NCBI GenBank assembly: GCA_938042195.1
Contig: CALIRQ010000019.1
Span: 1 to 64,000, forward strand
Direction of reading: 5' to 3'
Length of the DNA stretch: 64,000 nt
Source of the DNA: an uncultured archaeon
GTDB lineage: Archaea; Thermoproteota; Bathyarchaeia; 40CM-2-53-6; CALIRQ01
This document shows, one piece after another, positions 54,084 through 60,510 of this stretch. Numbering within the stretch: position 1 is the first letter of the stretch; each line of letters opens with the position of its first letter. The position numbers and the translations under genes were made by a program. The notes below the pieces were generated by a model. That model was not told the origin of the DNA, did no database searches, and was given only the letters and a program-made list of their open reading frames with translations.

Positions 54084-57000
54084 CTATAAAAACTGCGCTA
54101 AATTAGTCTGCCTTCCCCTGATCTCCGCGAGGCCCGAGGGGAAGAGGGAGTTTATCTCCTCCCTTATGAGCTTCAGACGCTGCTCGTAGTAACCTCCCAG
54201 CCCATACTTCCCCACTAGTTCCTCGGCCTTCGCCAAGTATTTCTCCATCGTCCCCTTATAAACCGTCAAGGAGAGCTTGCCCCCGCATCTGATGCAAACC
54301 CCCCTGAGGGGAATCCTCCTGAATTTGGAATTGCATTTCAAGCACCTGAATTTCTGCCCGGAGAACGCCTTCAGATTTCCGACCATGTCCCGTAGGAGGT
54401 GCGTGGAGAGTATCTTGCCGACAACGGCCCTTGAGTCGACGGCCCTCACGGCCTCGGCGATCCTCAATTGCTCCTCGATCTTTTCAAACATCGTTTCGAG
54501 CGTTTTATACCTGCTCTCGAGATTGCCCGCGTTTATATCGCTGGTCCAGTGCGTGAAGGGTAGGGGGGAGAAGGGATTGCCGCCCTCGATCCTGTGGAGG
54601 ACCGTCTCGATCATATCCCCAACGACCTTTGGATCGGACTTCCTCAGGGTTTCCTCGTAGAACCTCAGGGGAAAGCCTTGCGACTCCATATTATAGGCTT
54701 GCCTTGCGATCTCGGAGGGATTTATTATCACGCTCAATAGCAACGGGGCGTCCATAAGCCCGCCTATCTTCGAAGGCAAGAAGGATCTGGAGAAGTTCAA
54801 GAATACGTCCAAGGCTAGGGATACGCTATCCTCATCGCCATCGCAATCTCGCCTCTTGGCCGCGTGCCAGAAGGGGTGCGCGAAGCAAACGGAGGCTTCG
54901 GTGAAGCCTATGATCCTCCCAACGATCCCAACGGAGGTATGGGGGGAGAGGCCTATTACCAAATGCCCCACGAGATCCCCCCTTTCCTTCGCCCGATAAT
55001 AGGGGGGGAGGCCATAGAACTTCTCCAAGAGCTCATCGATGAAGCCCGCGACTTTTAGGAGGTAATCGGCGCATTTGATGGGGATTATTATATCATGGAC
55101 CTTCAGGGGGCAGAGCTGATCCGCATCCTCCAATCTATCGCATCTTGCATCGCAATCGTAGCCCAGCTCCCTCAGCTTCTCCACGGGCGTCCCTATCTCC
55201 TTTGGCTTGAAGTGGGTCAATGGCGCGTTTGTGACGTCGAACCTTATGGTGCCATCCTTATATACGGATAGGCCGTATTTGCTCCTCAAAATGCCCTTCT
55301 CCAACGGCTCCGGGACCTTCTCCCTGCTCGAGAGTCCCTTGACCCCTTTCACCACCTCGGGCAGATCGGCCATCCCCAGCCTCTTTAGCGCCCCGTGGAG
55401 CATCCCCTTGAGGTCGACCGAATATAGCTGATGCGGGATGGCCTCGGATTTGCAATGCTCGCAATATCCCCCCTTTAAGGCCCTCCCGCACCTCCTACAG
55501 ACATACTCAGCATTCGTCGACCCGCCGCATTCGGGACAACGCGTTTGAAAGGTGAGGGCCCCGCAGGAGCCGCAGCGCCTCCTCCCGAGCTCCACCGATA
55601 TGGAGCCGAAGGATTCCGCCGCTTGTACCACATCCCTCTTCGGACCGCCGTAGGTCCCAACCGGGAAGATGCAATGCACTAGGGGCTTCATCTCCCTCCT
55701 ATCCGCCTTCTCAGGCCTCCCCATTCTAGCTCCGATGAAGCCGAAGGCCTTCGGGATTATCTCGATGCCGGAGATCCTCTTTATGATCTCTATTGTGGGA
55801 AGCCCGGGGGGAATCTCCAAATCCCCCTCCCCTAAGGCCAAGCAAGCGGACAGGATTGGAGATTCCTCACCAATGGATATACTCCCCCCAATCACCTTAT
55901 GGGGGATGCAAAGCGTTTCCAAGATTCCCTTTAGCCTCGCGTCCAACTTTGCCGTGATTTCTTCCCCGCCCTCGGAGGAGGCCAACAATCCGCGCCTCAA
56001 ATAGGCGAAGTCCTCCGGGCTTATGTGATCCCAGAAGTACACGTATTTTGGGTGTAGGGGTATCTTTAATCGCCTCGAGATCTGGAGGGCCTCTTCGGGG
56101 CTGGGCTTGTGGCCGAGCGGATCGATGATGAATGCTCGCAACCTTTGGGCATCCAGCCCGGGGCATTCTATCGACCCCCTGTCCTTGAGGGCCTTCGCCA
56201 ATATCTTCGCCCACCATTCCTCAACGAAGCCAGAAGGGAAGAGCGGCCTATTATTTTCGAGGAACTCCCCGAAGCCAATGAGAATATCCCCCAAGAAGAG
56301 GATCGAATCTATCGAGTCGAGCAACTCCCCGGCGGTGCGGGGATCCTCGAGCCTGACGACCGAGCCATCCTTGAGCTTGACCACGGGGGGCTCTATTGAA
56401 TCCACCGGCTGCGCGACCCCGGCCTTACCGGGGAGCTCGAGCTTCAGCTGCGTCCCGATGGCTACGAACTTCCTCAGGGCTATCATGGTTGAGGGGTGTA
56501 TGCCAACCGCCGCGAGCCCCGTATTCCTAGCCCTCCCATACCTCAACCTGAAGCCGCCCTTGGCGCCAGGGAAGGAGAATATCGGCCTGCCGGCTATGAC
56601 GTCCTCCATATACATGAACTCCCTTCGCTCCCTCTCCTCCCCCTCCTCCGCCCTTATCCCCCTCAGCCAATCCCAGCCCCTGATCCCCAGCTTATCCACT
56701 ATCCTCAGGATCTTCGCCTTCCTGCCGATCAGACCGTCGTTAACTACCCGAAGCGCTCCTCCCCTGAGCCTATTGGTCTCTATCCTAGGCAAATTCCTAT
56801 AGAAGGAGACCTCGATCGGATCGGTTTCACCCCCGGTCACCTCCACTGGGAGATGCATAATTGCATGGAAGAGCTCCTCATCGGAAACCCTGAATTGAAA
56901 TCTCCCGACCTCCCTCTCGTAAAGCCTGAGCTCCTCCACGAACCTCCTAGCCTCCTGCTCGGTCGCCCTGTACCTAGAGAGGCCGAGCAGGCGCCTCACG

Positions 57001-57479
57001 TAATCCGCTACGACTAGTATCAAGCCCATATCGGTGCCGCCGGCGGATCTTATCGGGCCCGAGAAGTATAACGCGAGATACTTCGTACCATCGCTGTTCT
57101 CCTTCTCCCTTACCCCCGATATTCCTTCTATGGGGGCTATGGTGACGCCTTCCCCAAAGATCGCGAGGGCCGTCCTTACGGCTTGCTCCGCTATCTCCTC
57201 CGCGGAGGATCCGAATCCCCCATAGACGATCTCCTCCGCTATCTTGAAGGCGATCTCCTCCCTAGGGAGGAGGGCTGAAAGCTCCCTGATCCTAAAGGCT
57301 ATATTTGGAGGGCCAACCGATTTCTCAACCCTCTCCGCCAGATCCCTTGAAAATTCGACCTCGATCTTGGTTGATGGATCAAGGCCCTTTGCCCTCGCCC
57401 TATTGGATAATTCGGCCAGCTCATTCAATTTCGCCTCGATCTCCGAAAACCTTTCAAAATACGGGAGGGCTTTCCCCAA
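54084..57479 (-). CDS. polC: DNA polymerase D large subunit DP2 (no intein seen)
   Basis: GVTIAPIEGISGVREKENSDGTKYLALYFSGPIRSAGGTD, FCHPF-like FAHPFWHAAKRRDCDGDEDSV; zinc motifs. Confidence 0.96.
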   Translation of the reverse strand: MGKALPYFERFSEIEAKLNELAELSNRARAKGLDPSTKIEVEFSRDLAERVEKSVGPPNIAFRIRELSALLPREEIAFKIAEEIVYGGFGSSAEEIAEQAVRTALAIFGEGVTIAPIEGISGVREKENSDGTKYLALYFSGPIRSAGGTDMGLILVVADYVRRLLGLSRYRATEQEARRFVEELRLYEREVGRFQFRVSDEELFHAIMHLPVEVTGGETDPIEVSFYRNLPRIETNRLRGGALRVVNDGLIGRKAKILRIVDKLGIRGWDWLRGIRAEEGEERERREFMYMEDVIAGRPIFSFPGAKGGFRLRYGRARNTGLAAVGIHPSTMIALRKFVAIGTQLKLELPGKAGVAQPVDSIEPPVVKLKDGSVVRLEDPRTAGELLDSIDSILFLGDILIGFGEFLENNRPLFPSGFVEEWWAKILAKALKDRGSIECPGLDAQRLRAFIIDPLGHKPSPEEALQISRRLKIPLHPKYVYFWDHISPEDFAYLRRGLLASSEGGEEITAKLDARLKGILETLCIPHKVIGGSISIGEESPILSACLALGEGDLEIPPGLPTIEIIKRISGIEIIPKAFGFIGARMGRPEKADRREMKPLVHCIFPVGTYGGPKRDVVQAAESFGSISVELGRRRCGSCGALTFQTRCPECGGSTNAEYVCRRCGRALKGGYCEHCKSEAIPHQLYSVDLKGMLHGALKRLGMADLPEVVKGVKGLSSREKVPEPLEKGILRSKYGLSVYKDGTIRFDVTNAPLTHFKPKEIGTPVEKLRELGYDCDARCDRLEDADQLCPLKVHDIIIPIKCADYLLKVAGFIDELLEKFYGLPPYYRAKERGDLVGHLVIGLSPHTSVGIVGRIIGFTEASVCFAHPFWHAAKRRDCDGDEDSVSLALDVFLNFSRSFLPSKIGGLMDAPLLLSVIINPSEIARQAYNMESQGFPLRFYEETLRKSDPKVVGDMIETVLHRIEGGNPFSPLPFTHWTSDINAGNLESRYKTLETMFEKIEEQLRIAEAVRAVDSRAVVGKILSTHLLRDMVGNLKAFSGQKFRCLKCNSKFRRIPLRGVCIRCGGKLSLTVYKGTMEKYLAKAEELVGKYGLGGYYEQRLKLIREEINSLFPSGLAEIRGRQTNLAQFL

Positions 57480-57797: not shown

Positions 57798-58313
57798 GTG
57801 ATACAAAATCGTATTCAGAACGAGGGCCGTCCGATGGAAAAGAATGGGGAGCTTGAGGAGGCGAAGGAATGGCTAAAATGGGCTTTGAATGATCCGATAG
57901 CGAGGATTCTCCTAGAGAATAGCAATTTGACAAAAAAACAATACGAAAACCTATTGATAGGCTCATTTCGAGAGAAATTCATCCAAGGGAGGATGGGGTT
58001 CGGGAGTAAGCTGCGCCTGAAGGGAATGAAGGTGAGTAGGGGTGCCTTTTATAGGACCTTGAGGCAGGCCAGGAGGAACGTGCTCAGCTCCATATACACC
58101 ATATTCCTGCTTGGCTACGTGGGGCTTTTCGATAGCCCGAGATTGGAGCCGTTCATAGAGGTTTCAAATGCAATAAAGGATCTATCCGAAAGGCTGAGAG
58201 GATTTGAGGATGATTTAGAATCCCTAGAGAATATGAGGAAATGTCTGGAGGAGAATTTGAGGAATCTATTGAAAAACGTCCAAAGGGAGCGCGCCGAGGG
58301 CTTAATCGATTGA
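57798..58313 (+). CDS. Conserved-looking hypothetical basic protein next to putative origin
   Basis: 171-aa ORF with coherent composition; C-terminal coiled coil. Confidence 0.7.
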   Translation: MIQNRIQNEGRPMEKNGELEEAKEWLKWALNDPIARILLENSNLTKKQYENLLIGSFREKFIQGRMGFGSKLRLKGMKVSRGAFYRTLRQARRNVLSSIYTIFLLGYVGLFDSPRLEPFIEVSNAIKDLSERLRGFEDDLESLENMRKCLEENLRNLLKNVQRERAEGLID

Positions 58314-58742
58314 ACCGATCCTCAGCCTAGGATTGGTGGTATTCAAGGCGTAGCGCCATTCCGAGGGCGAGCCGATCCTATTCAAGAAGCCGGCCTCGGA
58401 TAGTCTGAGGAGATAGGTGGAAACCGTGCTGAGCCCTATTTCTTCCCCATAGATCTCCTCATAAATCCTTCGAAGCTCGTTTGAGGAGAAGGACCTATCG
58501 CTGAGCTCGTGGAGTATCACCTGCTTTACGCGCTCGAATTTATTCCTTGGTTGGAGGAGGGGGGTTGCGGGCCTAGGGGAGGGCTGAGACCCTCCCATCA
58601 GCTCCACGTAATCCAACAACCTGCTTATGGCTTCGCGGGAGATCCTCCCCTCGATGGCCAAGGTATGCTTGTTACCCTCCCCATCGACGAACTCTATTTT
58701 GACCTTCCTGGGGGGCAACCCTCTCCCCGCAAAGGACTTCAC
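58302..58742 (-). CDS. Winged-HTH regulator
   Basis: SSNELRRIYEEIYGEEIGLSTVSTYLLRLSEAGFLNRIG. Confidence 0.8.
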   Translation of the reverse strand: MKSFAGRGLPPRKVKIEFVDGEGNKHTLAIEGRISREAISRLLDYVELMGGSQPSPRPATPLLQPRNKFERVKQVILHELSDRSFSSNELRRIYEEIYGEEIGLSTVSTYLLRLSEAGFLNRIGSPSEWRYALNTTNPRLRIGSID

Positions 58743-59211
58743 AATTCACAAATTTAAATCTACCATAAATTTTTGTGAATAGTCAGATATGATGCGTTCA
58801 CAAAAAGACATCATTCTTGGAAAGGCTCCAAGCGAAAAAGGAAGGCTGCAGTGGAAATGAAGGGGTTAGCGCCCGTTTCACAGAAAGTGAAGAAAAAATG
58901 AGGGGGAGAATTTCTGATGATGGTTTTTCCTCCGGAATGGACCAAAAGGGTGAATGGGCTTTGCGAACCCCCACCCCTCCCTTTCCAATAGATTTCGAGG
59001 GGGATCGGAGGGGGACAATAGGGGAGAAAAGAAAAATAAAGAATATTGATTAAAAAAATGTATGAAAAGGGATATTTTTCTTCCTCTCCTTGAATTCAAG
59101 GGAGATTTTTAAAAAAGGAAAGAAAATAAATTTCAAAAAGGGAGAACTCCAAAGGAAAAAATGGGGTGGGGGTGGGGCTATTTTTTTCTATTTTCTACTC
59201 TATTTCATTGT
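58743..59211. other. Candidate replication origin (AT-rich, ORB-like repeats) upstream of cdc6
   Basis: Same-orientation repeats: 58826-58845 CTCCAAGCGAAAAAGGAAGG; 58846-58867 CTGCAGTGGAAATGAAGGGGTT; 58930-58952 CTCCGGAATGGACCAAAAGGGTG; 58981-59004 CTTTCCAATAGATTTCGAGGGGGA; 59147-59166 CTCCAAAGGAAAAAATGGGG. Confidence 0.6.
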
Positions 59212-60510
59212 ATGGGAAATCCTTTTTCCTCTACTGGAAGGGATGGGTATTCCGCTGGGGTGGGAGGATTGTCGGCGAAGGATGCCTTGGACTCCCTTTT
59301 TTCCAGATACCTCTCCGGCTCTAGGATATTCGTGAATAGGGATGTTTTAAAGCATGATTATATCCCCGACAATCTCCCCCATCGCGGGGAACAAATCCAA
59401 AAATTGGGCGGCATCTTGGCCCCCGCTCTGAACAAATCCAAGATATCCAACGCATTCATCTATGGCAAGACCGGGACAGGGAAGACCGCCGTAACAAAAT
59501 TCGTCCTTTCTAGATTCGAGGGTAAGGCGAGGGAGATCAATGCCCCGCTCGACGTTTGCTACGTTAACTGCCGCCTCTCCGGGACCAATTATAGGGTCTT
59601 GGCCTCAATTTGCAAATCTGTGGGGATGGAGGTCCCCTTCACGGGTTTGGCTACTGGGGAATTATTGGACCGATTCAAGAACTTCATCAACCTCCACAAC
59701 TCCATAATAATAGTCGCCCTTGATGAGATGGACGCGCTCGTAAGGGATAGGGGAGATGACGACCTCCTCTACGAGCTCACTAGGATCAATGAGGGGCTGA
59801 GGAACGGTTGGGTGGCCCTCGTGGGCATTACGAACGACGTGAACTTCAAGGAGTTCCTGGACCCGAGAGTTTTGAGTAGCTTGAGCGAAGAGGAGGTGGT
59901 CTTCAAACCATACTTGGCTAATGAGCTCTTCGATATACTCCAAGAAAGGGCGGAGATGGCCTTCATCAAGGGCGTGGTGGAGGAGGGGACCATAAGGCTC
60001 TGCGCCGCGCTGGCGGCCGGCGAGCATGGGGATGCCAGGAGGGCCCTCGACCTCCTCAGGGTGGCGGGCGAATTGGCGGAGAGGCTTGGCAGGGATAAGG
60101 TCGATGAGGAACTGGTCAGATTGGCCCAGCAGAAGGTGGAGCATGATAGGATGACGGAGATACTGAAATCCCTGCCCATACATTCCAAGCTGGTCCTAAT
60201 GAGCGTCTTCATCCTGAACACCAAACTCGAGGTTAACGGCGCCATCACCGGCGACGTTTATAACGTCTATTCGGAACTATGCCAAAAGACGTCCTTGGAG
60301 CCCCTAACCCAGAGGAGGGTCAGCGGCCTAATAAATGAACTCGACGTCTTGGGCATATTGAACGCTAGGGTCGTCAGCTTCGGTAGATATGGGAGGACGA
60401 AGAAGATACGCCTCGGCGTCCCCGAAAGGGTTATAATGGAGATACTATCCGAAGATGAAATAGTTGGGAGGCTATTCAGCTTCTCCCCCACGTCGGTCAG
60501 GAAGAAGTGA
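59212..60510 (+). CDS. cdc6: Orc1/Cdc6 replication initiator
   Basis: AFIYGKTGTGKTAVTKFVL, VALDEMDALV, C-terminal wHTH; ATG at 59212. Confidence 0.95.
   Translation: MGNPFSSTGRDGYSAGVGGLSAKDALDSLFSRYLSGSRIFVNRDVLKHDYIPDNLPHRGEQIQKLGGILAPALNKSKISNAFIYGKTGTGKTAVTKFVLSRFEGKAREINAPLDVCYVNCRLSGTNYRVLASICKSVGMEVPFTGLATGELLDRFKNFINLHNSIIIVALDEMDALVRDRGDDDLLYELTRINEGLRNGWVALVGITNDVNFKEFLDPRVLSSLSEEEVVFKPYLANELFDILQERAEMAFIKGVVEEGTIRLCAALAAGEHGDARRALDLLRVAGELAERLGRDKVDEELVRLAQQKVEHDRMTEILKSLPIHSKLVLMSVFILNTKLEVNGAITGDVYNVYSELCQKTSLEPLTQRRVSGLINELDVLGILNARVVSFGRYGRTKKIRLGVPERVIMEILSEDEIVGRLFSFSPTSVRKK

Follow-up and report, generated by a model that had tools for sequence, protein, structure and literature searches.

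Here, we propose that the AT-rich region between a divergent winged-helix (wH) gene and orc1/cdc6 is very probably the oriC-type origin of the chromosome of this uncultured Thermoproteota archaeon, equipped with an accessory module. The region belongs to a window (the whole stretch of DNA analysed) that comprises bases 1-64000 of a 96,444-bp contig, from a 1.27-Mb genome bin with two same-genus relatives in our comparison set. In the explanation that we favour, and which as a whole we hold with high confidence, Orc1-1, the product of the adjacent cdc6, would bind two outward-facing ORBs, B and C, on either side of an AT-rich unwinding element at which MCM would be loaded as at Sulfolobus oriC1. 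The strongest ORB, A, lies about 105 bp beyond B in the wH gene's promoter region and is phase-locked to a palindromic TTCAC-N5-GTGAA box, with which it forms a composite. A second DNA-binding protein, for which the wH protein is the first candidate, may occupy the boxes beside Orc1-1 and tune initiation, wH transcription or both.

The original prediction, a candidate cdc6-adjacent oriC with ORBs, is supported by the Orc1-1 type of the initiator, the ranking of the ORBs, the duplex unwinding element (DUE), conservation, the matching core of Sulfolobales oriC1 and the keto skew of a relative. It had overlooked the inverted ORB, the second box system and the presence of the divergent gene in a conserved locus. 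We infer origin activity from the computed elements, their positions and conservation, and the relative's skew. The region has what characterises archaeal ORB-type oriCs: adjacency to cdc6, several ORBs including an inverted one, and an AT-rich DUE between inverted ORBs.

The probable origin core and its initiator

The features of the locus are as follows.

54084-57479: PolD DP2 gene
Between the PolD DP2 gene and the unnamed 171-aa gene: Elf1
57798-58313: unnamed 171-aa gene, convergent with the wH gene, no Pfam/NCBIfam family
58302-58718, minus strand: divergent wH gene, 146 aa, start TTG 58718 by homology
58738, 58745, 58774 and 58797: four TTCACA/TGTGAA boxes (within 58738..58802), on both sides of the wH TATA-like element
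58750-58759: TATA-like element of the wH gene, AAATTTAAAT
58847-58866, plus strand: ORB A, TGCAGTGGAAATGAAGGGGT, 29.5 bits, rank 1 in the 96-kb contig
58877-58891: palindromic second box, TTCACAGAAAGTGAA, 10 bp after ORB A
58973-58992, minus strand: ORB B (inverted), TCTATTGGAAAGGGAGGGGT, 18.5 bits, rank 3 in the 96-kb contig
59027-59146: candidate DUE between B and C, 23% GC
59148-59167, plus strand: ORB C, TCCAAAGGAAAAAATGGGGT, 26.4 bits, rank 2 in the 96-kb contig
59269-60510, plus strand: orc1/cdc6, Orc1-1 type, start TTG 59269 by homology
After cdc6: endonuclease dU gene

With both starts set by homology, the true gap between the wH gene and cdc6 is 58719-59268. The PolD DP2 gene does lie about 1.3 kb away, as first described, and no RNA family (Rfam) was found in the window. 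A recognisable homologue of the 171-aa gene also stands upstream of the origin in G040, a genome without the wH gene, and for this reason the 171-aa gene may be another conserved origin neighbour.

The original prediction had counted four or five elements in the same orientation; only three ORBs rise above background, and one of these is inverted. Its best element, placed at 58846, is real (at 58847) and is the present ORB A, with 1 mismatch to the published common ORB motif, TCCA[CG]T[TG]GAAA[TC][GA]AAGGGGT (PMC4164010). The three best matches to that motif in the 64-kb window all fall inside the 469 bp (A with 1 mismatch, B and C with 4 each), and ORB A is the sole match with 3 mismatches or fewer in the 1.27-Mb genome. 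The bit scores come from a matrix of 70 ORBs of relatives, the window's genus excluded; the next-best sites in the 96 kb reach 11.5 bits (overlapping ORB B) and 9.2 bits. It is hardly credible that this is an ordinary promoter region in which ORB-like words arose by chance: some of the ORBs are degenerate, B and C in particular being 4 mismatches from the published motif, but the top three sites of 96 kb are A, C and B, no site of at least 17 bits was found in 289 kb of non-origin DNA, and the ORBs are conserved across classes. In a sister species (Cdc6 94% identical), ORB A lies inside a run of identical bases, ORB C and the TTCACA sites are kept, and the DNA between the conserved sites has diverged; ORB B is a weak match in both species. 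The short element CCTTGAATTCAAGG, which had been placed at 59089, is present and starts at 59088; we rejected it as an origin element, as it is not conserved in the sister species.

The description of 58743-59211 as AT-rich in a GC-rich genome holds (the contig is 58% GC), and no 120 bp of the 96-kb contig are poorer in GC than 59027-59146; the candidate DUE region is also the second least stable 100 bp. Since the lowest-GC stretch sits between B and C both here and in most relatives, B-C is likely the unwinding interval. The order A(+) B(-) DUE C(+) cdc6 recurs across the class, with A and B spaced by 126 bp here and by 122-124 bp in other members of the window's order in which all the ORBs were found; in the order, B(-) and C(+) are about 170-207 bp apart. 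The A-B-C-cdc6 order is also found in families f24, f25, f40 and f29 of other classes, with different A-B spacings. Family f48 has a different origin layout, in which three tandem same-orientation ORB variants (TCCAGTGGAAGTGATGGTGT) precede cdc6 and TTCAC boxes are absent (L331, L332).

The cdc6 product carries the Pfam domains Cdc6_C, Cdc6_lid and AAA and matches the NCBIfam ORC1-type family. Its nearest relatives in a PDB search are Sulfolobus Orc1-1 (2qby_A, E 6e-118) and Aeropyrum ORC1 (2v1u_A, E 5e-112), both of which have had their structures solved with origin DNA (PMC5333045). The C-terminal wH motif RRVSxxIxELDxxGI and the wing GRYGKT are conserved. The phylum set includes Sulfolobales-like genomes, whose Orc1-1 is 75% identical to that of S. 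solfataricus, and an apparent N. maritimus, which places the archaeon in Thermoproteota as GTDB defines the phylum. The genome encodes two more Cdc6 paralogues (G000:C7:7912-8940 and G000:C9:127520-128599; L025, L026), and no ORBs were found near either. They are possibly regulators or the initiators of other origins, and because they exist, further origins elsewhere in the genome are possible.

The original prediction had proposed repeat conservation and nucleotide skew as checks, and both have now been run. The repeats are conserved in relatives. GC skew is flat, with no clear inflection, in the contigs of four genomes, the window's own among them (G000, G001, G003, G006). One complete genome from the class (G110, 2.15 Mb) was covered by 40 evenly spaced 20-kb samples amounting to 37% of its length. 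Its only three-ORB cluster lies at 1747.7-1748.1 kb, and the cumulative keto and TA skews both reach their minima in the sample ending at 1742 kb. The keto-skew maximum, at 665 kb, is almost exactly half a genome away from that minimum. When the genome is split at the ORB locus, the keto contrast ranks first among 40 positions and the TA and purine contrasts second; GC skew alone did not single out the locus (rank 23 of 40).

The TTCACA boxes and the wH gene

The palindrome at 58877-58891, TTCACAGAAAGTGAA, was correctly reported in the original prediction and is the genome's single TTCAC-N5-GTGAA (0.01 expected per window). Together, the five TTCACA sites at 58738-58877 are packed more densely than any others in the 96-kb contig. 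We masked the ORBs and counted hexamers in the 340 bp that precede the wH gene in each of 31 genomes: TTCACA/TGTGAA showed the strongest enrichment (115 observed vs 8.2 expected) and occurs in 30 of the 31. The boxes are limited to the 0-400 bp that separate the wH gene from ORB B, with a peak in the first 100 bp upstream of the wH gene. In the window's order, 24 distinct sites have TTCAC-N5-GTGAA or a close variant after ORB A; the gap is 10-11 bp at 22 of them and 8 and 16 bp at the other two. Most members of other orders of the class have a half-site 6 bp after ORB A, and most Nitrosopumilus-like genomes have TTCACA/TTAACA 12-13 bp after ORB A. Such fixed phasing of ORB A and box suggests that two proteins bind next to each other.

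The boxes themselves belong to the origin, because origins that lack the wH gene keep them and the wH promoters of f25 and f40 do not have them. The cdc6-side origins of f25, f29 and f40 keep them (116 observed vs 23 expected, 14 genomes); at the wH promoters of f25 and f40 they occur at chance, and two of four f29 wH promoters hold several. We thus rejected the notion that they are purely a wH promoter element. Box counts are at background in lineages that lack the gene, Sulfolobales among them. We found no description of a TTCACA box or of the wH gene at origins in the open-access literature that our search covered, and the accessory box module is apparently unreported.

The wH protein combines a beta-hairpin/helix domain at its N terminus with a wH at its C terminus (AlphaFold, pLDDT 90-94 for the wH). 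No Pfam or NCBIfam family matches it above the curated cut-off, the weak matches being to Penicillinase_R, MCM_C and FUR, and a fold search with the wH model returned generic wH folds, none at E <= 0.001. The gene is present in 100 of 150 class genomes and in 184 of 300 phylum genomes, as a rule in one copy, and Heimdallarchaeota carry a divergent form.

With few exceptions, wH genes of the window's class have an upstream ORB, as do those of f19, f20, f24, f28, f33, f41, f45, f46, one f51 genome and Heimdallarchaeota; none was found in that position in f25, f29, f40 or f48. In f25, f29 and f40 the wH gene is off the origin; where both can be placed, the distance ranges from 20 kb to hundreds of kb. 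The f4 genomes keep ORBs and wH gene together, with cdc6 about 3 kb off. In f3, ORB A and the palindrome accompany the wH gene at a distance of 4-6 kb from cdc6, several of these genomes leaving B and C at cdc6. The f20 origin is unlinked from its initiator gene: in G120, an ORB trio lies with the wH gene (L235, C6:98-107 kb), and cdc6 (L274, C6:48-56 kb), with no ORB nearby, is 50 kb away. Heimdallarchaeota loci (L001, L002, L007 and others) show an inverted ORB pair beside the wH-family gene about 3.6 kb upstream of cdc6 and a single near-perfect ORB about 1.24 kb upstream of cdc6; the inverted pair next to that gene suggests an origin separated from cdc6. At L001, tandem AGTCTAATA-like repeats take the place of the TTCAC boxes.

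In light of the boxes being origin elements, what might bind them? By co-occurrence, the wH protein is a candidate. It may bind the TTCACA boxes by ORB A, repress its own promoter and modulate Orc1-1/MCM as a functional counterpart of UBP, which acts at the Sulfolobus ucm, a reading that we entertain seriously while placing it somewhat short of even. The boxes flank the wH TATA-like element and crowd towards the wH start, the wH gene retains an upstream ORB, at about 120-220 bp, even with cdc6 3 kb (f4) or 50 kb (G120) off, and lineages without the gene, Sulfolobales included, have background box counts. Nor is a second Cdc6 likely to be needed, as boxes are also present in members of the order in which we detected just one Cdc6 (G003, G006, G011). 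Against the wH protein, in f25 and f40 it is the origin that keeps the boxes and the remote wH promoter that lacks them, boxes are missing from G039 and f48, which carry the wH gene, and Heimdallarchaeota lack TTCAC boxes at theirs.

The migration of ORB A and the palindrome with the wH gene in f3, several of whose genomes keep B and C at cdc6, would also suit a different division of the region, in which ORB A and the boxes are solely a regulatory element of the wH gene, with Orc1-1 and a repressor acting as transcription factors, and the origin is B-DUE-C alone. Sulfolobales do manage without ORB A. We nonetheless think this unlikely, as f25, f29 and f40 keep A and the boxes at the origin after the wH gene has left, and within the window's order the distance from A to B hardly varies (122-126 bp). 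A role in chromosome segregation, with the boxes as a centromere-like or nucleoid-protein site beside the origin, appears improbable. Short repeats clustered beside oriC would fit it, as would a small wH protein, and the fold search lists the centromere-binding AspA, but among many generic wH matches, none with E <= 0.001.

Comparison with known origins

Among the nearest described systems is Sulfolobus oriC1 (ORB3-DUE-ORB2-ORB1), which is likewise cdc6-adjacent, has outward-pointing inverted ORBs around an AT-rich DUE and is served by an orthologous Orc1-1; its ORB3-DUE-ORB2 core is needed in vivo (PMC12141716). It differs in having the tandem ORB1 beyond C, which is missing here, whereas the present region has the extra ORB A beyond B. 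Across Sulfolobales we find B(-)-DUE-C(+), in agreement with that core and with their minus-strand ORB as the counterpart of ORB B, and a tandem ORB before cdc6, with no ORB A, no TTCACA boxes and no wH gene. Like the UBP-ucm system (PMC12141716), the boxes constitute a second conserved origin motif besides the ORBs, presumably with its own binding protein. However, they lie outside the DUE beside ORB A, and their sequence and candidate protein (wH) differ; the ucm (ATTATACAAAC) has no match with up to 2 mismatches in the region. In haloarchaeal oriC1, also cdc6-linked and AT-rich between two inverted ORBs with an extra repeat, the accessory element is a G-rich repeat that tunes firing (PMC3936714), in contrast to the TTCAC palindrome here, and no wH gene is described there.

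The Nitrosopumilus type of origin has the wH gene, A-position ORBs, an AT-rich stretch and cdc6 in the same order, and differs in that ORB A is doubled and the boxes have drifted to TTAAC. It is represented here by G139, apparently a Nitrosopumilus, which we take to be N. maritimus SCM1. A single mapped origin has been reported for N. maritimus (PMC4010727).

Implications for archaeal replication

To our knowledge, hardly any replication origins have been described from uncultured TACK and Asgard archaea. Our findings define an origin layout that is conserved across an entire class. They add a second system of boxes and an unnamed wH gene, which remains close to ORBs even in some lineages in which cdc6 does not. 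In a 2025 study of UBP, it was asked explicitly whether divergent archaea have analogous origin proteins (PMC12141716), and the wH gene and boxes offer a testable candidate gene and site for that question. In metagenome bins, the wH gene and the ORB/box composite may serve as practical origin markers. More broadly, and as a tentative proposal that we consider possible without leaning towards it, most Thermoproteota other than the Sulfolobales-like lineages, along with Heimdallarchaeota, may have an unrecognised origin-linked wH protein that works with Orc1-1 through the composite of ORB and TTCACA box. If this is true, the wH protein would be a second general origin factor of those Thermoproteota and of Heimdallarchaeota.
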